DNA of 64,000 nt from Acanthamoeba sp. SK_2022b (taxonomy: Eukaryota > Discosea > Longamoebia > Acanthamoebidae). The notes below the pieces were generated by a model. The model was not told where the DNA came from. It saw nothing but the letters and a program-made list of their open reading frames with translations, and ran no database searches. Every line of letters begins with the position of its first letter. The stretch's first letter is position 1. The stretch covers positions 1 to 64,000 of the forward strand of contig JANDJZ010000315.1 of assembly GCA_027943245.1 (NCBI GenBank). Direction: 5' to 3'. The position numbers and the translations under genes were made by a program. Positions 7,537 through 63,103 of this stretch are shown one piece after another.

Positions 7537-10500
7537 ATGGAGGGCCTGGGGCGCTACCTTGAGTCCTCGCAGTTGGCCGACGTGGAAGTCGAGGCCGATG
7601 GTCGTCTGTTCCCTGCCCATCGCATCGTCTTGGCCCGCCATTCCCTGCTGTTGCGCCAAATCTTCACAGATTTGCAAGGGTTGCCCGAGCTTGTTGTGCC
7701 GCTTCGGATTATCGTTCGAGGCGACGGTGTCGAAGACCCACTTGTGGAGGGCAATAAGATCGAGATCGAACTGCCGCCGGGGGCATGGCCGTTGGTGGCG
7801 TCGTTCATGTACGAGGGCTCCGTGCTGCTGCACCCCAACAACGTCCTGCCTCTCTTTGACAGCGCTGCGCGTCTGCAGGTGCGTTGTGCGTGTGGCATGT
7901 TGCATCCTGCGCCAAAGCCAGCTGCTGGGACTGACCAATTGGTTTGTCTGTGGGTTGTGTGCAGATACCTGGCCTCCACACACAGTGCAAGCGATTCCTC
8001 GTGGCTGGCGAGGGTGACATCTTGGGGCTCGCCGCTTCCGCAGGCCAGTCGGGTCTTGCCGCTGCAGAAGGTGTGCATCTCTCTCGCTCTCTCTCTCGCG
8101 CAACATTGGCTAACCGGTGAGGTTGCTCTGTTCTCTCTCTACTTTGCATTGTAAGAGCACTGCCTGGCTCGCGTCGCGCAAGAGCTGCCTGCCCTCGTGC
8201 GGGCCGACGTCGATGCCTTTGCGCGACTCGCCCCGGCGCAGCTGCTCAGGCTCTACCGCAGGCCCGACCTCAACACCGAAGGCAACGAATACCTCCTATG
8301 GCACATTCTCGCGCGGTGGACGCGAGCCAACCTTCCCGCCTCGCTTGCCCTCGCCGGCGAGCGAGCAGCGGACGCCGGCAACGAAGAGGAGGAGGACAAG
8401 GACGAGGTCAACCAAGCCCACCACTTCCTGCAGGAGGCGCTGGGCCTGATCCGCTTCGCCCTGCTCACGTCGGCGCAGTTGGCCGAGGTCCAGCAGAGCG
8501 CCCTCGCCGTGCGGCTGCTGCCGGAAGGCTACTTCCTGCGGGTCTACGCCCACAAGCTCGAGCTACAGCAGTCCCCCAGCGCCACTGCGCTCGCTGCCGT
8601 GCCGACCTCGGCCGACTTCCTCCCCCGGCGACCGCCTCCCAACGAAGCCGGCGGCAAGGCGGCAGCCGTTGTGATCGGGCAGGTCGTCATGGGCGCGATG
8701 GACCAGTCGTTCTTGTGGAGGATACATGGAGTGCGGGAGGCGCTGGGCCTGGACGACCTCCTGAGCACGTCGACTCGAACATTCAGGAGCCCTTCGTTCG
8801 CACTCGACGGCTCGCGACGGTATCCCTGCGCCACATCGCGCATGCCCCGTTAAGTGGTGTCGCCCATCTCATTTTGTCCTTGCACTGGCGCTGTCGACAG
8901 GCAGTTCGTGCTGAGCTACAGTGCGATGGAGCGGAGCCTCAAGCTGCACGTCGCTCGATCGCGCGCACTCAGCGACAGCATCCAGTGTGCGGGGGACGCG
9001 CAGCCGCTTCCGCGGCTTGTGGACGATGACGACCACAGAGACTCCACGAGCCGCCGCGCCGCCGCCGCGCATTACATCGCGGTGGTCCACCCGCAACAGT
9101 CGCACGACTCGATCACGCGTGAGCTGACGCCCCAGTCTGCGGCCCTGCGGGTCGTGCTGGTCGACCTGACCAGCCAAGGGTTCATCGGGCGCGCCGAGGA
9201 CAGCGCCGACGTGCTGCTGGTCCAGCTCCTCTCGGTTTCGCTTCCCTCGCGGTCCACGCCCGCCTCGCACCTGACCGAGGCCATCAACGAGGATGACGAG
9301 GACGCCGCGGAGGCGGACCAGCAGGCCAACGGTCGGTGGCTAGCCCAGAAGGCCAAGGACACGGGCAGGGACGAAGCGGACAACGACAAGGAGGGCTTCA
9401 TGCACTTCTTCCGCAGCGAGACCCTGGCTGACGTCACCCTCCGACTTGTCGACGAGAATTACAAGAGCCAAGGGGCCGAACGCGAAGGCGAAGGCGAAGC
9501 CGAGGGTCGGGTGGTGAAGGAGGTGAGGGCGCATCGGCTGCTGCTCTGCTGCGGCTCGGACTACTTTGATTCGATGTTTGGGTCCCCGTGGAGCGAGGCG
9601 CTCACGAGCGAGGTGTGCATCCCCCTGGCCGCGAGCGCCGAGGACGACGATTCGGAGGAGCGCGGGGCAGAGCTGGCTGCGCAGAAGGGCGAAGCCGACA
9701 TGTTCACGGAGATGATCGCGTCCTTCTACGGCCAGGCCATAACGCCCAACGAAAGCAACGTGCTGCCTTTGCTCAAGATCTCGCTCCGCTTTCTCGCGCA
9801 CGCGCTCTCGGAAAGGTTCGGCGTCGTCGTGGTCGTTCGCGCTCTCTTGGCGTTTCATCTCCTTGTCTGGCTGACACGAGCGGTTCTCCCGTCCCATGTG
9901 CGCCTAGCTGCTTGGCCTGGCTCAAGGACGACGCCGAGGTGGAGCAGCTGTTCTCGCTCTTGATGAGGGCCAACCGTCTCAACCTCGCCCAAGCGCAAGG
10001 TCGTTCACTCCACAACCATCACTACACACCACAGCTCTCTTTTGAAAACAAACATTGAATATTTCTTGTGAATTTATTTATTTATTCAATTGATTACTCA
10101 TTTGCCTATAACAGATTGCCTGATGGACAGGCTCGCGATTGAGTTTGGCAGCATGGTGAAGCGTGGACAGACTCACCTCTTTGAGCAGTTGTCCTACGAA
10201 CAGCTCCTCGAGCTCACCCAACGCGACCAGCTCTTCACGCTCGACGAGTACCAGGTCTTACAACTCCCCCGCACAAACGCATGCTGTGAGTGGCGCGCAC
10301 TATAGTCATTAACGTGCAAACTTGCGTGTGCAGGTCTGGTCGGTTATTTCGCACTACGTCAACACGCACGGACACGAACTGCATGAATCGGAGGTGGCCT
10401 TTCTGCTTGGCGCGGTCCGCTATCCTCTGCTCACGTCTACCGAGATCCTTCAGGTTCACCCCCCCCCCGCGCATCGCCCTCTCTCGCGCCTCCGCGTGCC

Positions 10501-26235: not shown

Positions 26236-29534
<3,299 letters not shown>

Positions 29535-30117
29535 GCACTTCCTCGCTCCGCTCTGCGGTCCCCCCTTCGACTCGAGGCTCGGCCCTTGCCTAGGCCTCGA
29601 GGGCGGTCTTCCTGCTTGCTTGCTTGCTTGCTTTGCCCGATGATGATGTCGGACGAGCAAAGGAAGGCGACGGCTGAAGGGCGCCGCAGAGGCTCTACAC
29701 GCGGGAAGTGCGCGATGCCGCCTTTTCCACAACCCACACTAGGTATGCTACGCTTGCAATCACACCACGCGAATGCCAGCCCCCCCCCTTGCACGCTGGC
29801 CTCTGTTAAGTTTCGTCCTCTCCTTTCCTTCTTCTCTCCTAGGCAGGGCGCGAAGACGGCCACATGAAGAGGGGGTCGAAAAGCCATCAACCGGACCGAC
29901 CCATCTCTGAACCGCCCATCTTCCTACCCCTCCTCCCTTCCATTTCTCTCCTCTCTCTCTCTCTCTCTCTTTCATTTGATCCATCGGCGAAACACCAGCC
30001 GAAAGGCTTCAGAGCGCCGCCCGCTCGCCGGCGGACTGCGCCAGGCGTATCGCCGAAAGAATGATCTCTGCCCATAAATAATCGGAAAATACAAAGGCAG
30101 CAAACAAATACAAGTAG
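29535..30117 (+). other. SelO 3' UTR and spacer
   Basis: 583 bp between the SelO TAA and the next start. It holds the SECIS candidate and a possible 3' UTR intron (donor GTAAGC at 29531, acceptor CTCCTAG ending at 29842) that would bring the SECIS closer. A CT dinucleotide run lies near 29950-29970. No other gene is seen. Confidence 0.6.
29849..29923 (+). promoter_or_regulatory. SECIS element candidate for SelO
   Basis: A single stem-loop in the SelO 3' UTR shows every eukaryotic SECIS feature. Quartet strand ATGA is at 29864-29867 and TGA at 29908-29910. Helix II is AGAGGGGGTCG (29868-29878) paired with 29897-29908, 11 pairs with one bulged A at 29903. The apical loop begins with AAAA (29879-29882). 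Below the quartet, helix I pairs GAAGA and GGC (about 29852-29860) with GCC and TCTTC (about 29913-29922) around an internal loop. Spacing from quartet to loop A's (11 nt) is what the machinery requires. No folding program was run. Confidence 0.8.
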
Positions 30118-31831
<1,714 letters not shown>

Positions 31832-37706: not shown

Positions 37707-40700
37707 ATGTGGAACCTCACTCGGACGCACCAGCTCGTCCTGCTTCTCCTATGTATCGCCATTGGTCCTGCGTATCTGATAAGCAACATCCCCACCCCAC
37801 AATCCGATAAACTCAACGATCTAGGTGAACGTACACACGAAGCCCCCTCCCTTCTTTGCAACTACCCCACCCCTGGCCTTCCTCCCTCCAAGGTACCCCG
37901 GCTCTTCTACGCCCAGGCAGGGGGCGATCATTCACGCCTTTCTTTCTCTAGCCTCTCTTGCCACTCCCCTATTGCAGCTACTTGTCCGAAACCTCCTGCT
38001 GCACGACTGCTGGATCTACACATGTAGTTGGCAGCTTTCTCGATACCTTCGCCACCTCCTTCTCTGTCAACAACGCCACGGGAAGCGGGGCCGACGATTA
38101 TGAGAAGTGTCGGAGTGCTTTAGAAACCTTTGCTTGTGGCCGCTACTGCGCCCCCCAGCAAGCGCTCTACCTCGATGAAATTGAGAAATCGTACGCCATT
38201 TGCCGTCCATTTTGTCAAGATATCTACGCTGCATGCGGCAATGTTCTCGATGCCAAGACCAGAACTACGATTTCATCGCGCTACCCGACGTCAACGAAGT
38301 TTTGCGAAGCGCAGAGCTTCAACAACTTCTCCATCGTCGTCAATCCGAGCGATCTTTGCTATAAGGGATTCAGGCCAGATGCCAGCGCGTCTCATACCCA
38401 CCTCAGAGGTGTTGGCTACTGGCTAAGCGAGAAGGGAGTTACGGACGTACAGAACCGCTCGGGCGTCCCTAACACCGAGTACTGCTTCGACATCCAGCTC
38501 GAGGACTTCTACGAGAACCCGAAGCAGGTCGGCGGCGACTCAGTGGTCGTCCTCATCAGCAATGCCAGCGCTACGGCAGAAGAGCTGGAGGTCACGGACA
38601 ACAATGATGGCTCCTACTCGACATGCTTCACCTCCGCCACAAGCGACACGTACAACCTCGGCTACTCCGTCAACGAGAACGACGTCATTTCGTTCACCGT
38701 CGCCATTGCCAACACGTCTTGGTGTCCTCTCAAGGGCTACACTCCACGGCCTTCTGACATCAGCCTGCCGTGTCAGGGGTCTTCGAGCGCGCCCTGCTGC
38801 CCCGAGTTTGCCACCAGCTCTTGCTGCAACGACAGTACGCCCACCTATGAGCTCATTTTTAGGGCCACCCGCTTTCTCAATCTTGCCTCACAGGCGATAC
38901 CGCGACCATTAAGAACTACGTGGTGAACGAGCTCGAGCCAGTGTTCGGCAGCAACGCCGAGTGCTTCGCCAAACAGCAGAAGCTGCTATGCGGCCTGTCG
39001 TGCGATCCCAGGCAGTCGGAGTACGCGAACGTGCAGGGCAGTTCTCCGAATCAGGCCACCACGTTCTTCATCTGGTATCGGCTCTCTCGTCGCTGTACGC
39101 CTGCTCGCTCGTTACTAACCTCAACCTGTGCTACACCAGCGAATCCTACTGCGAGGCTCTCTATGCTGATTGCGGCCAAGTCGTGATCACCAAAAGAGGG
39201 TTAGTGGTGTTAGGCGATACCGTTTCCGACATCTACCACACCGCTGACGCGTTCTGCCAGTCTCTGGTTCCCTCCTATCTGACCGACACGTCGTTCGTCG
39301 TCGCCGGAGATGGATCCAGGGTAGGCTTTATCCCGACCAAACGAAGCTTCATCTGCCCTGACACATTTCCTCGCAGACGTGCTTCAGCGCATACGTGCCT
39401 CCTGATGCGTGCCAGAGCTCGGCCTCCGGCTACAACAACACCGTGGCTGGAGAACAGGGATCGTTCACCATCAATACGCGCAGCGTTTACGGAGCGGCCC
39501 TCACCGACTCGCAAGGCTACACCTGGACAGTCCGCCTGAACAGTACGTCCTCAGCACCTTCCATGGCCAAATCCAGCCGGCCATCTCTAACCTGTGTGCA
39601 TTGGCGTTCGTCTGCAGACGGCAATGGTGTACTGGTGGAGGGCAGCGTCATCGATAACGAGGACGGTTCTTTTGGCGTGACCTACGTGGCCAACGTGTCG
39701 GGCTACTACACCGCCGAGGCTTACCTCGTACCGTCAGGCCAATCCCCTGCCCAGCTCTGCCAGGTACGACCAGCCGTGCTCGACCGTACCATTTCTTCGC
39801 TGCGTGCTTGGCTCACTCACGCTCTCGCCGTAATCAGTCTATCGACGTGGCCGTGTTCCCTTCGGCCCCATCGCCGCCCAACTACCTCGTCTATGGCGAG
39901 GGGCTCTACTCGGGCTATCAAAATCTGCCCGCCTTCTTCACCGTTCAGGTCAGGGACCAGTATGGCAACAACATCACCGACGGCGGCGAAGTGCTCCTTT
40001 TCGAACTGGTACGCAACAAGACCGGCGAACAGACCCAAAACATCTCCTACATCGACAACTTCAACGGAACCTACAGCGTCGTCTATGCGGCGCCTCTTCC
40101 TGGAGCCTACAATTTGACGATCTATGGCTCTGGAGGCAAGGTGCTCGTGAACCAATTTTCGATCTTCATTCTCCCAGGTGCGGCCTACTCTCTCCACGCC
40201 ACTCCACTAGGCCGCACACGGCTAATCCTTTCTCTCCCTTCTGCGCTCGCAGTCGACGCCTGGAGTGCCTATGGCAGTGGCCTCACCTTTGCCGCCGCTG
40301 GCGAGACCGCGAACTTTACCCTACAGTACTACAATCGTCTAACAAACCAGAACGGTACCCGGCCCAGGACGCCACCGTTTGAGGTACGAGCCCGCCTGCA
40401 TTGCGGGCATCAGTGGCTAACCTCGCCCCGATACGATGGCCGTTCGTACAGTTTGACTTCCTCTTCCGAGGTCCTGGTAAGGTCACAGTGGAGAACGTGG
40501 TGGACAACGAGAACGGCACCTATGTTGTGTTCTGGTCGACCACCGTTGCGGGTAAGAAGCGTCCTTTGTCCTGCCGCTGCAAAGCAAAATATAGCAGCCT
40601 CTCATATCTGTTGCAGGCCGCTATCGCTTGGACATATCTGAGCAAGTGAGCGGGATCGTTGTGTCCAACAGTCCCTTCTTCCCTCTGGTCAACCCGAGCG

Positions 40701-52890: not shown

Positions 52891-55800
52891 CAACAACAAC
52901 AACAACAACAACAACACATTCCTTTGTGGGGGGGGGGTAGGCTGGGCCAGTCTACCTCGCTTCTTCTTGTACCAGCGGCCGACGCTTTTGTTGCCCTCCT
53001 TCTCCATCATGGCGATGACCCGCTTCATGCAGCACACGAGATCGGGCGGCGGCACGTAGGAGTCGAACTCGAGCATGAGGGCGGCCTTCTTGTGTCGCTT
53101 GAGCAGCGCCCGCTTGGCCTCCTTGCTCAGCACGATGGCGCTCGACGACTTGGCCCCCGGGCGCAGCTTCTCCTTGCCCTTGTCCCTGCCCGCCTGCTGC
53201 GCGCTCGCACAGGGCGCCGCCGCCGCCGCCGCCGACGACGACAGCGACAACGAAAACGGCGTCGTGGGATCGCTCATCGACCTGTTCTCGCGGCCCTCGC
53301 CCGGCGAGCACTTGCCCCCATTGGCGTCGATGCCGGCTGTCGACGACGACGACGACGACGATGACGAGCTCACGGGGAGGCCGTCGGGGAGGACGCGGAC
53401 GACGCGGCTGCGGACGCGGTAGGCGGGCTGCCGATACGCGAACCGAATGCCGAACGGGGCGCAGAACGTGCGGAGAGACCTGCGGCGCGTGCCCGCGGGA
53501 GACGCGGCGCGGTGAGGCCCATGGCCGACGCGCATTGACCGCGAACGGGGAAGGCTGCATTGGCGCGCAGGGGGAGGGGGAGGGGGAAGGGGCGAGGCAC
53601 CAAGACGGAAAGACGGCGATATCGCCCTCGGCGGCAATCTTGGACAGCGGCTGCATGCACAGGGAGCGACGACGCCAAGTGAGTCGGTGAGCGTGTCGAC
53701 ACAAATGGCTGGAGGGGAGGGGGCGTGAGCTACCAAGCGGTTCGCGCGGCTGGAGTCGGCCCCGTCCGGCCGCTCGGTGCGGAGTTCGATCTGGCACAGG
53801 TCCGGGTCGGTCGAGTGGGCGCTGACGAGCTTGAACATGGCGTTGCAGGGCATCATGTTGAGCTGGGTGGTGAAGCCGGTCTTGTTGGGCTTGTGTCGGT
53901 GCTGGTGTGGGTGGGGTTGGTGCTGCGCGTCCCCCGCGGGCTGGAGGGGGAGCGGGGTGGGCTCCTCGAGCAGGTGCACCATGCGCTCGCCGTCGTTGCC
54001 GCGCGGGGTCATGGAGGACACGCGCAGGCTGCCGTCGCGCCCGCGCCACTCGTCCTTGCGCCGCTTCTCGAGCTCGCGGAAGCGGTAGAACTTGAGCGTG
54101 GGCGCCATCAGCCGGTCCAGCTCCTCGTCGGTGACGCCCACCACCCGCTCGCGCGCAAAGGCGTTCCCCGCGGGGGCCTCGGGACCGCTGGCCGCCGCCG
54201 CCGCCGCCGCCTCGCCGTTGGACCGGGCGCCCTCGGCGGGGGCCGGGTCCTCGACCGTCGGCGCGGGCCGGGGCGCGAGCGGCCGCGGGCCCTGGCACGC
54301 CGCGCAGGTTCGGCGGGCGGCCGGGTTGAGGAGCGTGCACAGCTCGCAGCTCCACTGCACGTGCACGCTGTCGCCGGCCAGGAAGCTGTCGTCCCCATAC
54401 CTGTGCATCACCTTCTTCCTGCATTTTCCGCGCGCGCGCACACAAGTATGCGTGGAATGCGAATGAGCGCAACGAGGCAGAGAGAGAGAGAGAGAGCGAG
54501 AGAGCGAGAGGAGGGAGAGAGGAGCAGGGAGGAGACCTGGAGAAGAGGAGCAGCTCCATCACGCTCATGGGTATGCCCAGGTGCTTGGCCAAGTTGGTGA
54601 GCAGGACGACCGTGATGCGTCCCATCAACCTGGTGGTAGAACCGGTGCCACAGTCGCCAGCGGGTGAGCGCATTGATGATGGGAAGGTACTGGGGGAGAG
54701 GAGGAGGAGGAGGAGGACGCAGACCTCCAGTAGCGCACGGCCACCTCTTTGTCGTGCTCCGTGGCATCGGGCCACGGGAACCACCGGTGATGCGTGACCG
54801 TCGTCTGCATTTCGTTACAACACGATCAGACACTCACCATACGCCGCCTTTACGACTGTGTGTGCGTGCGTGTGTGTTGCGTGCGTGGAGGAGTGTTGCG
54901 ATGGATGCAGACCTGGAATGAGTTCAACTCGGGGGCCTCGGCATAGCCAGCGGCCGAGGTCTTGAGGTAGAGCATGGAGCGACGCGACATGGCGTCGAGG
55001 CTCTCCGACGAGGCCAGGAAGCGGGCCGCCGCGGCCTTCATGTCCCGCACGATTTGCACCTCGGCCTCGTCGAGCCTCAGAAAGAAGAAGCCGTCCTCCA
55101 CGAGTCGCTCCAACACGACTGCGACACAGACCACGCGTGCAATCGCTCGTCACTCAGTGCCATACACGCACACACTAGGCAAACAGGACAGCGGCGCGCG
55201 CGCGCGCGTTTGGTCGACTTACCGGAGGGCGTCTCGAGGCTTTCGAGCTGCCCGAAGGTAAAGCGCGGCTGGTCGAGGGCGTAGTAGGCCGGATGCACGT
55301 AGAGCGGCCTCAGCTTCACCCTCGCCTCCCTCTGTGGGCGCCACGACCCCGGTGGAGAGCAGACGCCGCGTGAGAAGCGCGCCACACAGATTCGCGTCGG
55401 CGCTTGGTCGTGTGCGTGCATGCGTGCGTGTGCGTGCGGGAGTGGTTTGGCGTACAGAGTGGCGGGAGCGAACGCGCAGCATGCGCAAGATGCTGGGCTC
55501 GCGGCTGAGCAGGTGGAGCAGGCGGCAGGCCTGGGACAGCCGCACGAGGTCGACCGGCGCGAGGAAGGAGAGCACGCCCAGCAGCACCTCCTCCGGCAGA
55601 TCAAGGAGCCCTATCGTCATCACCGTTTCCTCTTCGTCTTCCTCTTTCCCGTTCGCCGTCCCCGCGTCCATCTTGGCCGCGTCCTTCAGCTTCCTCTCGC
55701 CCGCCGTGAAGACCGCTACGCTCTCCACCGAGACGCTGATGCTGTCCCGCACCGCCTCCTTCCCCTTCCCCATCTCCGCCTCCCTTTGCTGCTGCTGCTG

Positions 55801-56466
55801 CTGCTTCTTCTTCTTCTTCGTCTTCTTCCTCGAGCCCTTCCTCTTCGTGGTCGTCATCGTGGCGGTCGCTTCCCCGTGGACCGAGCGTGACGGGGACGGC
55901 GACGGGGACGATGACGGGGACGGCTCGTCCGTGCTCGCTCCCTCGCCCGGCTCGTGCAGGGCGCTCTCGCTCTCGTGCTCGTGCTCCTCCTTGGGCCTCC
56001 TCCGCGCCTGCTCGGCGGCAGCCGTCTTCTTGTGCTTCTTGGCGCCCTTGCCCGCCGGCGACTCCGATCCGCTGCCGGCGACGATCTCCTGCTGCGGCCG
56101 CTTCTCCTCGGCGCACTTGCTCTCTGTCTCCTCCTCCCCGGCGTGGCTCGGGCAGGGCTCGGACAGCTCTCTCTTCTCGGCGTCAGAGGCGCCTTCCTCG
56201 ATCTCCACCTCCTTCGCCTTGCCTTCGTCTCGCGTAGCATGCTTCTTTGCCTTCTTCTTTGTCATCTGGCTCTTCTCCTTGGTCTTTGTTCGCGCATTCG
56301 CCTTGCCTCCCGCTGCCTCGGCGGGGTTGCTGTTGTTGGAGGACTGCTGGCTTGACTGGCACGAAGATGGCTCCGCGCACTCAATCGTCTTGTTGGCGCT
56401 GCTGACCGTCGAGGCGAGGCCATCGATCGCCCCCTGCTCAGGGCCAAGGCCTGTGCAGGTCTCCAT
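52054..56466 (-). CDS. F-box and RanBP2-type zinc finger protein
   Basis: Eleven exons, 1,123 aa: complement(join(52054..52109,52209..52643,52727..52789,52956..53479,53601..53650,53734..54418,54537..54689,54725..54804,54913..55118,55223..55331,55456..56466)). Residues 1-280 are charged low complexity (Glu, Lys, Gln runs). An F-box covers ~285-330 (LLDLPEEVLLGVLSFLAPVD). Residues ~338-470 read like an uncharacterised enzyme-like segment (DGFFFLRLDEAEVQIVRDMK). A RanBP2-type zinc finger lies at ~541-566 (WSCELCTLLNPAARRTCAAC). The C-terminal third is Ser/Asp-rich then Arg/Lys-rich with a short hydrophobic end. It may be a ubiquitin-ligase adaptor that binds ubiquitin or RNA through its finger. 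The intron 54690-54724 would be only 35 bp; a better 49-bp intron (donor 54738) gives the plausible YLPIINALTRWRLWHRF but then shifts the frame, so a sequence error or true frameshift is possible here. Confidence 0.6.
52826..52916 (+). repeat. (CA)n followed by (CAA)n in an intron
   Basis: A CA run of about 62 bp is followed directly by about nine CAA units, inside the intron 52790-52955 of the F-box/RanBP2-ZnF gene. Confidence 0.95.
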
Positions 56467-58322: not shown

Positions 58323-58600
58323 GAGTCGTGTGTGAAGTGTATCGTGTGTACGTGGTTTGTGCTACTGGGTGCCCGCGTGTCGTGTCGTGTCGTCCACCGT
58401 GGCGCGCGTGTCGTGCCTCAGGCAACTGACATTTCATAACAGGAAAGAAAAGAAGTGGAAAATGAAACGGAAAAAGCTCTCTCATTGCTGGCGTTCTGCT
58501 GCTGAAGGATACGCGAGAGCAAAAAGAATAACTTATAACTTGATAACCGTGTGGCGGGCAACTTGGGGGTAGGTGTAAACAAAAGGTAACAAACAACCGC

Positions 58601-59495
58601 TCATTGGGTCTTCTTCCCGCTGGTGTCGCCGTCGGTGCCCCTGACCTTGGCCACCATTAGCCGAAGGAGAAGGGAGAACCAGTAGAGGTTGAGCAGGCTG
58701 AGTGAGAGCATGGCGAACTTGTAGTAGTAGCTGAAGCAGAGATCCGACCAGTCGGTCATGGTAGGGATGCGTTGATCGATGTCCTGCCACACGAAGATGG
58801 AGTATCCGATGCCAAGCACAATCCGGAACACGAAAAACGAGGTAAGCAACAACACCCCGTTCGCTATCTTCAGGGACAGCCTGGCATTCATCTTCTCGAG
58901 TAGCCACTGGGTATTGAGGAACGGAGTGCTGGCCTCGAATGTGAGGTAGAAGCAGCCGTAGTACATGAACTTCCCGTCCTTCATGAACCGCAACCGTCAG
59001 AAGAGATGGCGCAGCATTGCATGAAGAGGTAGGGGGGAGAAGTCGCACCAGGAAGCTCAAGAAGGTGAGGAGACATGCCACCCCATGAAAGAGGAGCGGG
59101 AAGCGGAACTCGGAGTAGAAGCGGACGCAGACCACGACGTCCCACAGAAAAAAGCCAACGGCGCAGGTGATGGTCAGGTAGGCCGCGTCGGAGTAGGAAG
59201 TGAAGCTGTCGCCCTTGAGAAGAGGATCGAAAAGAAGGCCGTAGAAAGCTCCCACGAGGACGAGGGTGCTGAAGAAGAAGGACACAACTCGACTGCGCCA
59301 CGGGAAACTGTGGTGCGCCGGCAGGTCGAGCTTGCCGTTGAGGAAGAAGCCCAGAATCCACCCCGAGCACAAGTGGACCAAGGTCCACACCAGCGCCCAG
59401 GCCACAACTGGCACCCCGTGCACGAACACCAGGTTGGTCCCCCTCCTCTGCCAGTCCGTCAGCGCATCCGCCCACATCGAGCCGGATCCTTCCAT
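58601..59495 (-). CDS. TLC-domain membrane protein (TRAM/LAG1/CLN8 family)
   Basis: Model: complement(join(58601..58978,59049..59495)), 274 aa. Six or more hydrophobic helices with the TLC signature region (SYSDAAYLTITCAVGFFLWD, FHGVACLLTFLSFL, FEASTPFLNTQWLLEKM). TLC proteins include ceramide synthases and lipid-sensing or lipid-transport proteins such as TMEM56/TLCD. The Lag1 double-His motif of ceramide synthases is not evident, so a TLCD/TMEM56-like role in membrane lipid handling is more likely than ceramide synthesis. The C-terminal KKTQ could serve ER retrieval (weak). Confidence 0.85.
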
Positions 59496-59709
59496 TGCTG
59501 TCGATTGCACAATGTGTGCGGTGTAGTCAAATTGTGCTCGCAGCGGCTATTCAATGAGCACAGATGGAGAAGCTGAAGCTCAAGGTTCTTATCCCTGCTG
59601 TTTACGGACCGGGTACGATGTGACCCTTTTTAAGGAGAGGAGAAAAGACAAGATAATAACGAAAGTGATATATTAAAAAGTATAAACCGCAAAGAGAGAA
59701 AGGCTTTGC

Positions 59710-60740
59710 ATGGACACGTTGGTGGATAGCACGCCACTCAATTTTGACCTCCACAACCACCACAACCACGCGGCCCACGACAACTACACCCCGAGAATGA
59801 ACCACGGGCAACATTCAATGGAATCGTCCCCCATGCACGACATGTCGATGCCTATGTATTTCCAGTGGAGCACAGATGTTACCGTTTTGTTCGAACGTAC
59901 GCTTGCTTGGATGTTCTCCCTTTTCCTCAACAACGGAAGATTGGCAGAGCCGCCTAAATGGCTTGTGTCGAACTTCAGAGTGGCACGTGGAGTCGCCCGG
60001 TTGGTACACCGTCACCGCCGTAGCCATCTTCCTCTTGGGCCTATTCTACGAGTGGCTTATCACCTTCCGGCAAGGTAGGTCACTTCCCTTCTTCTTGGCG
60101 CTCCTTGCTCGCCTGTCTTTCGTGGCACGAAGAGTTGCTAACGGTTCGGCTTGCCTTCTGATTATGCCATCTTCTTGTGTTGGTAAGGATACGAGCAGCG
60201 AATGCACGCCAAGAGGAGAGAGGACGAGTTGAAGATACAGTACGAGGATGAAGACGTGGGCTTCGACGTGCAGGCGAGCCAGCCCCTCAAGAAGCTGCTC
60301 CGACTGACTCCCCAGCACCAGTGCGTGCCCTTCCGCTCTTGCTCCCTCGCTTTTGCTTCTCATCCCAATGGTGTGCTCTGCCTTCTCATCTCGTGGCAGG
60401 GCCAAGGCGGTAAACGACAACCTGCACCACCTTATCGCGGCTGCGTTGCATGTCGTTCAGCTTTCCATCGCGTACGTCGTAACCAGGCTTGTTGGCTTGA
60501 CGTTTGGCTTTTCATTTGTTATTGTGGCTTGTCCAGGTACGCGCTGATGCTGGTCGTGATGACCTACAACGTCGGCCTCTCGGTGGCCGTTATCGCTGGT
60601 TCGTTACGCTCGCCGTACCGGTCCGCACTCTCCCCTCACCACGTTAACCCGCGTGTGCGATTGCAGGAGCCGGTGCTGGCTACTTCCTGTTTGCTCGTCT
60701 CCGCCGCACCATCGCCATCAACGAGGCGGGCTGCCACTGA
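59710..60740 (+). CDS. Ctr-family copper transporter (SLC31-like)
   Basis: Model: join(59710..59896,59979..60074,60188..60320,60400..60471,60537..60598,60667..60740), 207 aa. The extracellular N-terminus is His/Met-rich (LHNHHNHAAHDN, SMESSPMHDMSMPMYFQ) with the Met clusters that bind Cu(I). Three TM helices follow: TVTAVAIFLLGLFYEWLI; AALHVVQLSIAYALMLVVMTYN, carrying the MxxxM-type selectivity motif; and VAVIAGAGAGYFLFARL with the GxxxG packing motif. The cytoplasmic loop is charged (RREDELKIQYEDEDV). It should import Cu(I) as a trimer at the plasma membrane or an endosome. The tail ends GCH, in place of the usual HCH copper-donor motif. Confidence 0.92.
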
Positions 60741-60953
60741 ACGGCGGCCACTTGGCTGCGGAATCAGGGGAGGAGAGCTCGGACACAAGGCGCGGTTTTG
60801 TACAGAAGGCCAACAAAAAGAGGGCAGCCAATGGGCACAGACGACCGTTGAAGTGAAAATGGAGGTTCACCTGCGTGGGCAAATGAGGCTGGCGGGCGAG
60901 CCTCCCCGGAGGGCTTTGTTCCACTGCAGTCCCCGGCGCAAGAAGAGAAAAAG

Positions 60954-63103
60954 ATGAAGAAGGTGAAGGTTGTGTTTGGCCAGTCGCGCCTGCTGATTCC
61001 GTGCGGAAATGGCCAGGACAAGGTGGAGCGACTTGTGGAGGACATTAACAAACGCTTTCAAAGCCACCTGGGCAACCCCAACGTGCGTGCCAAGGAGCTC
61101 ACGACAGACGACGGCTTCCTCGTGAATCCGCACGACGTAATCGACCACGTGATTGATGACAGCTCCGTCCTGGTTGCGCTCGATTACGCCACCTGGCTCA
61201 AGGCCAATCTGGCGCTTCTCGAAAAGGACGGCAGCCACAAGCTCATGCGTCCGGACTATGCGGCAGGCAACTGGCGACCACCCTACCGCTATGCCGAGAT
61301 CGGCAAGCACAAGCACAACAAGATCTACGTCAAAATCGGCTCTGCTTCCGATGAGGTGGATCGTCTAGAGCTTTTCGATCTCGAGAGCTTGCACACGTTT
61401 GGCGCGAAGGAAGGCGGTCGTGCCCTCATCGCGCATAAGGAAGTCAAGGAGACGAAAGACGACCAGGCCTGGGACTGGTCCGTGCAGGTGCACTTCCTCC
61501 TCGAGAAGGGCGTCGTCGTTGCTGCCGAGCTGTCCGTTCGTACGACCAGGTAGGCTCATCCCTTGTGTAGCCTCTTTAATTCACAGATGGCGAGATTAAT
61601 CGCCGCTCACCAAATTGGCGCGCAAACGCAATGACAGCGACCCTCGTCCGCAGATTGAAGTAGTGCCGATCAACGCTGACCTCACGCTTGGCGAGGTCAC
61701 CGTCAAGCAGACCGCCTCCTATCCCAAGCCCAACAAGACCTACACCCTCCCCGCGCCCAAGACCGAAGGGCCTGCCTTTGCCCCCGATGACTTCATTCCC
61801 AGTACCCTGCCCCTCACCACCCCACCACACTACTCTTGTTGTTGCATCAGCTCATCATCGCGATTGTCGCAGCCCACCTGGCGCCTTCGGGCATCGTCGA
61901 AATCCCTGTCCCCGAGAATGTGGCCAAGGGCGACCTGGGGATTGAGATCAAGCAGAAGGACGCCACCCAAGCCGACCAGGTACGATACAGATGGCCTCTT
62001 GCTCACTCGCCACAACCTCGCTGACGGATTATCTCTGCCTGCCTGTCTGTCTGTCTGTTTGTCTGCAATCGCTCACCAGAGCTGGGCCAGCAGCGGAAGC
62101 TACTCCAACCTCTTCTACAACCACCTGGCCATCTTCAACCCGCTGGAAAAGGACGTGGCGATCGTGAAGGTCAAGTCCGAGTACGAGAAGGGCGGGGAGT
62201 GGGTCGAAATGAAGACCAGGTAGCCCGTCTGGTTCCAGCTGCTGTGTCCTGCTTCTGTCTCGGCTAATGACCACGACGCCCGGCAACAACCAACCCAACA
62301 ACCAACAGGCTTGGCTCGAAGAGCGGATACTACCGCTACTCGTTCGGTTACCAAGACGACGGATTCGTGCTCGAGCCCAACCAGAGGATGATCCTCGCCA
62401 TCGAGAGCAGCGTCCAGATCACCGCTCCGCAGTATGAGCGCGAACGGTACCAGCCCTCTTGCACGCAACCTTGCGCTGGCGTGTGCGTGGGCGTCTTTTG
62501 CTATGCTCATCTGTCCGATCACAGGAGGGCGCACCGTTCGCTTCCCTCTCCGCTCCGCATCCGCATTACGGTCGAAGACAAGGAGGGCAAGAGCTCGCAG
62601 CTCGTGATCGAGCACACCAACGAGCCGCTGGTGCTCACCACGAAGGAGTCGAGGGACAAGGCCGAAAACCGCACCAGCGACTTCTGGATCTACGCCGACG
62701 ACACTGAAGCCGACGCGCGAGTGTGGATCGAGGCGGTCCATGTGCCCGAGGAGCACCGCGTTCAGTTCGCGAGCAAGCCCTCGGACAACAACCCCTATTT
62801 CTACAAGAGCAACATCGACTACTACCTCTACCTCGCCAATAAGGAGGCCAAGAGCGAGATCGAAGTCCAGGAGCTGACCTCCAAGGTATGGCGCCGATCC
62901 CGGGTTTGTGTGCACGTGTTGTGCTCACAACGAAACTGGCGTGTGGTGGTTCGGCAAACGACCAGGACGAGTCCAGGGGCTACTCCCAGAAGGCCACGGC
63001 GCTGGTGGACCTGGAGAACAACTGGGTCTACGCCATCCGCTTCGAGATCCAGACCAACAGCTCCAGCACCGTCGCCTACTACCCGCTTCCTGATCTCGCC
63101 TAA
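60954..63103 (+). CDS. Seven-exon protein with ubiquitin-like/coilin-like N-terminus, unknown function
   Basis: Model: join(60954..61549,61638..61801,61873..61979,62080..62219,62309..62431,62525..62885,62966..63103), 542 aa. Residues 1-85 (MKKVKVVFGQSRLLIPCG ... DDGFLVNPHDVIDHVIDDSS) have the strand-helix-strand pattern of an N-terminal beta-grasp such as that of coilin; this is a fold-level impression only. The rest has repeated beta-rich segments (FNPLEKDVAIVKVKSEYEKG, YYRYSFGYQDDGFVLEPNQ, RIRITVEDKEGKS, NWVYAIRFEIQTNSSSTV), which suggests several beta-sandwich units. No catalytic motif, signal peptide or TM is seen. Confidence 0.65.

Follow-up and report, generated by a model that had tools for sequence, protein, structure and literature searches.

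A probable selenocysteine codon and SECIS element in a selenoprotein O gene of Acanthamoeba

The window analysed here (the whole 64 kb stretch of DNA, positions 1-64000 of contig C483) harbors a gene for a SelO protein whose reading frame meets a TGA that is followed by two serine codons and a TAA. The locus raises the question of whether the protein ends at this TGA or continues through it with selenocysteine (Sec). UGA is read as Sec when a SECIS complex brings EFsec-Sec-tRNA; otherwise it means termination, and the protein lacks its final three residues. From the features described below we consider it very probable that the locus encodes a eukaryotic selenoprotein O, with UGA 29523 read as Sec by means of a SECIS in the 3' UTR, so that the protein would end C-V-T-U-S-S. 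A preliminary description of this DNA had called SelO a probable selenocysteine protein, and at the level of sequence this proposal is supported by the tail, the SECIS, most of the machinery genes and two further SECIS genes in the genome. Genome-wide searches covered the 44.9 Mb assembly.

Structure of the SelO gene and the codons at its end

The coordinates of the 15-exon gene model are given in Table 1. Its 14 introns measure 65-111 nt, 12 of them with GT-AG and 2 with GC-AG borders. The start codon was set by analogy with the homologue P0001, which is 90% identical over residues 1-643 with two gaps, neither of them at an exon junction; the N-terminus of a second relative, P0002, is longer than that of the window SelO. 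P0001 is a frame of 651 residues whose contigs do not exceed 2351 nt; since the window gene is interrupted by 14 introns, P0001 is probably the product of a spliced cDNA. For the product of the window gene a size of about 73 kDa was calculated. Pfam SelO (PF02696) matched product residues 81-609 with 412.2 bits, showing that the SelO domain spans the body of the protein. A solved SelO was matched in a search of the PDB with an E-value of 4.3e-110, and the structure 6eac aligns with query residues 53-437 and 536-646, its SCSS end included.

Table 1. Positions of the features discussed in the text; positions refer to the window unless a contig is named
Feature	Position	Strand	Basis or remark
SelO gene, 15 exons	26389..29534	+	gene model; 646 aa including predicted Sec
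SelO exons 1-5	26389-26550, 26616-26764, 26835-26873, 26948-26984, 27079-27231	+	
SelO exons 6-10	27341-27442, 27533-27628, 27740-27885, 27974-28116, 28218-28390	+	
SelO exons 11-15	28483-28678, 28763-29033, 29117-29235, 29312-29380, 29449-29534	+	
Last coding exon	29449..29534	+	predicted tail AAELCVT-U-S-S-stop
In-frame TGA, predicted Sec codon	29523..29525	+	C-V-T-U-S-S
TAA, predicted true stop	29532..29534	+	overlaps GTAAGC string
Possible 3' UTR intron	29743..29842	+	sequence reading; GTATGC ... TCTCCTAG
Predicted SECIS: basal helix, GA quartet, 11-pair apical helix, AAAA	29855..29920	+	RF00031 20.3 bits; RNAfold
Predicted SECIS core	29861..29910	+	model built without the SelO site, 30.0 bits
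FrnE/DsbA-like gene, 215 aa, seven exons	contig C356, locus L044	-	in-frame TGA and SECIS
BTB	8854-9963		Pfam
Folate receptor and Invasin_D3	37958-38926		Pfam
F-box	55219-56466		Pfam
TLC domain	58533-59510		Pfam
Ctr copper transporter	60202-60957		Pfam

The final codons of the 15-exon frame are exactly those that the preliminary description had given, namely CTG (29511), TGC (29514), GTC (29517), ACC (29520), TGA (29523-29525), TCT, TCG and TAA. When both strands of the window were searched, the arrangement C-x-x-TGA-Ser-Ser-stop was found a single time, at the end of SelO, and Ser-Ser-stop follows 2 of the 1669 TGA triplets of the window. The uniqueness of the full arrangement argues against a reading in which the TGA is a real stop, the protein ends at CVT, and Ser-Ser-TAA and the hairpin downstream are due to chance or are relics of a lost Sec site. 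We regard this reading as very improbable, and the evidence that bears on it is weighed in the following.

The ends of homologous proteins were classed by the last letters of the predicted proteins in a set comprising the best 120 of 7992 homologues. Just before the TGA position end 104 of these 120, whereas 13 end in Cys-Ser-Ser and 3 end elsewhere. Among those that end before the TGA position are P0001, which ends at CVT, P0002 (77% identity) and P0045 of Balamuthia mandrillaris (54%). The predicted end of these 104 proteins favours a real stop, but the Sec-using animal SELENOO has the same apparent end among the matches listed (PMC3281104). The Cys-form homologues (CxxCSS in 10 of the 13) add Ser-Ser and then stop, which is the same end as that encoded by the codons 3' of the window TGA. 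With the SCSS of 6eac also aligned, the comparison of C-termini is consistent with the tail as it had been described.

It had further been stated that C-x-x-U-Ser-Ser is the arrangement of animal SELENOO. This holds for the position of the end, but C-x-x-U is not the commonest arrangement among the animal matches. A Cys is located three residues from the end in 12 of the 104 homologues ending before the TGA position (vertebrate, amphioxus, Balamuthia and unnamed proteins). In most of the 104 an Arg and not a Cys occupies this place, so that C-x-x-U is a minority arrangement among the listed homologues. With animal SELENOO the window SelO shares the SelO domain and, for most of the animal matches listed, the position of the end; it differs in that it is 50-58% identical to the named animal matches listed and that a tree of 33 rows chosen by hand (32 of the 120 homologues and the query) does not place it in the animal group. 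P0001 and P0002 are its neighbours in this tree, with a support of 100/100, and Balamuthia and unnamed rows join them in a group of weak support.

The hairpin 3' of the SelO stop

Eukaryotic SECIS elements have a non-Watson-Crick quartet made by ATGA and TGA, a helix of about 11-13 pairs and an unpaired AA. The hairpin 329 nt 3' of the SelO stop fits this definition in its quartet, its helix length and its unpaired AA. In the RNAfold structure ATGA lies at 29864 and TGA at 29908-29910, the helix counts 11 pairs and a single bulged A, the loop opens with AAAA (29879-29882), and 5+3 pairs make up the basal helix. All the parts that had been claimed for a SECIS-shaped hairpin about 330 bp downstream, including the lower helix, were thus detected. 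Positions 29840-29930 contain this fold with its quartet strands, but the total folding energy was unremarkable (z -1.54), and 11 of 200 shuffles were equally stable. This modest energy is in favour of a real stop at the TGA, as is the score of Rfam SECIS_1 (RF00031) on 29855-29920, which at 20.3 bits is below the gathering score of 35. The corresponding E-value of 0.37 is calculated over 4227 families and 701 bases, and by division amounts to about 9e-5 for RF00031 alone.

When the two strands of the window were scanned for the SECIS layout (ATGA and TGA), 8 sites matched, the SelO hairpin being one of them. In shuffled versions of the 600 nt 3' of the stop, any match was obtained in 33 of 3000 shuffles, and none of the 3000 attained 11 pairs and -15 kcal/mol, as the SelO hairpin does. 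The hairpin and the C-x-x-TGA-S-S tail exceed chance. A decaying SECIS would not be expected to retain quartet, AAAA and helix together, which argues against relics of a lost Sec site.

Over the genome no match to RF00031 was obtained at the default threshold, at which the controls were likewise silent. When E-values up to 10 were accepted (133 of 326 candidates scored), three places were listed, and the SelO SECIS was absent from this list. Two of the three sit 3' of genes whose frame contains a TGA at a redox site. The best place, with 24.8 bits also under the RF00031 gathering score, is located on contig C216 (L023, L043) downstream of a gene for a large thioredoxin reductase (TrxR-L) that ends Gly-Cys-TGA-Gly-stop. 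The second place (C356:58503-58575, 24.0 bits) lies 110 nt past the stop of the FrnE/DsbA-like gene. Exon 1 of this gene contains VVSDNV-TGA-P-W, from which splicing would create a U-P-W-C active site. At this site at least 109 of the 120 listed homologues carry CxxC, and the best match by E-value, P0121 (63% identity), has CPWC. The relatives of highest identity (P0122, P0123, P0124 and P0127; 72-82%) begin after the U-P-W-C motif, as if their frame were broken there as well. At the third place (C260:46480-46549, L045), which scored 19.6 bits, no gene with an in-frame TGA is in view, and the match is probably due to chance. By reading, the region around it contains a leucine-rich reading frame.

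The SECIS elements of TrxR-L and of the FrnE-like gene were then the only training sequences of a covariance model, R1, for which the structure was supplied by hand. On both strands of the 64 kb window R1 recovered positions 29861-29910 with 30.0 bits and an E-value of 4.6e-7, the E-values of a model with two training sequences being rough, and the next-best match had 11.1 bits (E 0.64). That the SECIS is recovered by a model built without the SelO site is a further argument against a real stop at the TGA. In an alignment of the three SECIS fitted to the R1 structure, pairing holds in 94.4% of cells and both partners change in 7 of 12 pairs; with the strands slid, this number drops to between 0 and 2. 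A pattern drawn from all three SECIS, which includes them by construction since it was chosen after all three had been seen, was present at 91 sites in the genome, and 90 of these sites and SelO were scored with R1. A score of at least 30 bits was reached at 3 of the 91 pattern sites, SelO and the two training SECIS; the next site, L076, had 22.1 bits and carries AGA instead of TGA on the 3' side. Folded individually, the FrnE-like SECIS is strongly stable (z -3.33, RNAfold), while for 96 nt around the TrxR-L SECIS RNAfold favours another fold and the core alone folds as a SECIS. As modelled here, the SelO hairpin is a SECIS.

Hardly credible is a third reading, in which the donor at 29531 is used and the mRNA is spliced past the TAA to a C-terminus that differs from the usual one, with or without Sec: GTAAGC would serve well as a donor, and the SECIS is preceded by a pyrimidine-rich acceptor at 29842, but the unspliced codons already give the expected CSS-type end that is found in 13 of the 120 homologues, and use of this donor leaves the TGA in place. 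The donor-like string itself (29531-29536) overlaps the predicted true stop of SelO. A possible 3' UTR intron (Table 1) stops just short of the SECIS and does not overlap with it.

Genes of the selenocysteine machinery

It had also been predicted that this protist possesses the eukaryotic Sec machinery. Matches to tRNA-Sec, EFsec, SepSecS, PSTK and SPS are in line with this prediction, but SBP2 was not found and the SPS is a Cys form. A tRNA-Sec with the anticodon TCA was detected on contig C500 (72.8 bits). The support for C500 as an amoebal contig is thin and consists, with 10 of its 22 ORFs scanned, of one mitochondrial carrier and one beta-helix match. The EFsec-specific domain III was identified on C720 (52 bits), SepSecS as five exon-sized matches on C31, and PSTK on C396 with 31.6 bits, which is under its curated cut-off. 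SPS was found on C203 (L032, L033) in exon-sized pieces that are each under the curated cut-off; the spliced gene has GCGCK at the Sec position and is located near the end of a contig of 10.7 kb. For SBP2, a search of the genome with the L7Ae model PF01248 gave pieces on four contigs, none of which reads as SBP2 and which we take to be RPL30, NHP2, SNU13 and RPL7A.

Genome-wide, 2 of 11 tRNA-Sec matches were above the cut-off, and one of the two was read as bacterial. This is the match with the best score (L001 on C315, 80.1 bits), which was rejected as a tRNA of the amoeba since it lies in enterobacterial DNA: in the best record the locus is 88.9% identical to E. coli over 45% of its length, and a match is present in 5374 of 5426 E. 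coli genomes. As this tRNA was not counted and SBP2 was not found, the amoeba's own Sec machinery is well but not completely supported. A second SelO on C1037 (L015) and a selD on C367 (L028) were likewise rejected as amoeba genes, each being a single long frame that by reading looks bacterial. Such enterobacterial or bacterial-looking contigs in the assembly (C315, C1037 and C367) could mislead a search for Sec genes of the amoeba.

Predicted activity and relation to known selenoproteins

SelO enzymes transfer AMP to proteins. The kinase-like domain of the amoeba SelO may do the same, and its Sec tail may support NAD hydrolysis or redox chemistry. For Sec to enter the tail, the SECIS in the 3' UTR would recruit the Sec elongation complex, so that UGA 29523 would be read as Sec; the gene, the tail codons, the SECIS, and the tRNA and enzyme genes all point to such an insertion.

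A 2026 commentary describes the C-terminal tail as essential for NAD hydrolysis by SelO and residue 667 as dispensable for AMPylation (PMC13391479). If this also applied to amoebae, the Sec tail would matter for one of the two activities only. On the basis of the different roles that the commentary assigns to the tail and to residue 667, the UGA might even be imagined as a selenium-gated switch: with selenium, a SelO with the U-S-S tail would hydrolyse NAD, and without it a tail-less SelO would still AMPylate. We consider such a switch unlikely; if it existed, selenium supply would set the balance of NAD hydrolysis and AMPylation in an amoeba. In the predicted proteins of the close relatives and in most named animal matches, the tail that is tied to NAD hydrolysis is missing.

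Sec-containing SelO has been described in Metazoa, Ostreococcus and stramenopiles (PMC3281104) and in the red alga Porphyra haitanensis (PMC2375036), and a SECIS was shown for SelO of O. tauri and P. haitanensis (PMC2375036, PMC3281104). With the proteins of Ostreococcus, stramenopiles and P. haitanensis the window SelO would share a C-terminal Sec. It differs from the picoeukaryote branch, which usually ends Uxx, by its predicted CxxUxx; proteins of the metazoan SELO branch usually end Cxx[CU]xx (PMC3281104). A 2012 survey describes unikonts as having SELO with the exception of Amoebozoa (PMC3281104), and the window gene would add a C-x-x-U-S-S SelO from an amoeba. No report of an amoebozoan Sec-SelO was found in the open-access literature searched. 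The gene also makes it possible to test for an old origin of the Sec tail of SelO, in the common lineage of amoebae and animals.

Bacterial SelO/YdiU (PDB 6eac, 6iii, 9jym, 6k20) is similar in its catalytic domain and C-terminus, both of which align in the case of 6eac, but a Cys stands at the Sec position, and the SECIS system of eukaryotes is not relevant to it.

The other two SECIS genes also have published counterparts. A Sec-containing thioredoxin reductase has already been published for Acanthamoeba (PMC8038987, PMC11459619). As in the window SelO, a UGA lies close to the C-terminus of A. castellanii TrxR-L, whose 3' UTR contains a type 1 SECIS (PMC8038987), and its counterpart in this genome ends GC-TGA-G-stop with a SECIS. 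The style of the genes, this reductase with its SECIS and the presence of Balamuthia among the SelO matches point to Acanthamoeba or a close relative as the probable source. TrxR-L is a different protein family from SelO, and neither PMC8038987 nor PMC11459619 contains the term 'SelO'. For FrnE, a Sec-containing form was reported in some green algae (PMC6627142). Together with SelO, the TrxR-L and FrnE-like genes would provide a set of three SECIS for this genome, which is sufficient as a starting point for finding its remaining selenoproteins.

A scan for promoters and terminators found none, and a scan of viral contigs for relatives gave no match. Elsewhere in the window, Pfam matches were obtained in 5 of the 10 ORFs scanned (Table 1). 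The next gene downstream of SelO, on the same strand at 30119-31430, reads like a medium-chain oxidoreductase.
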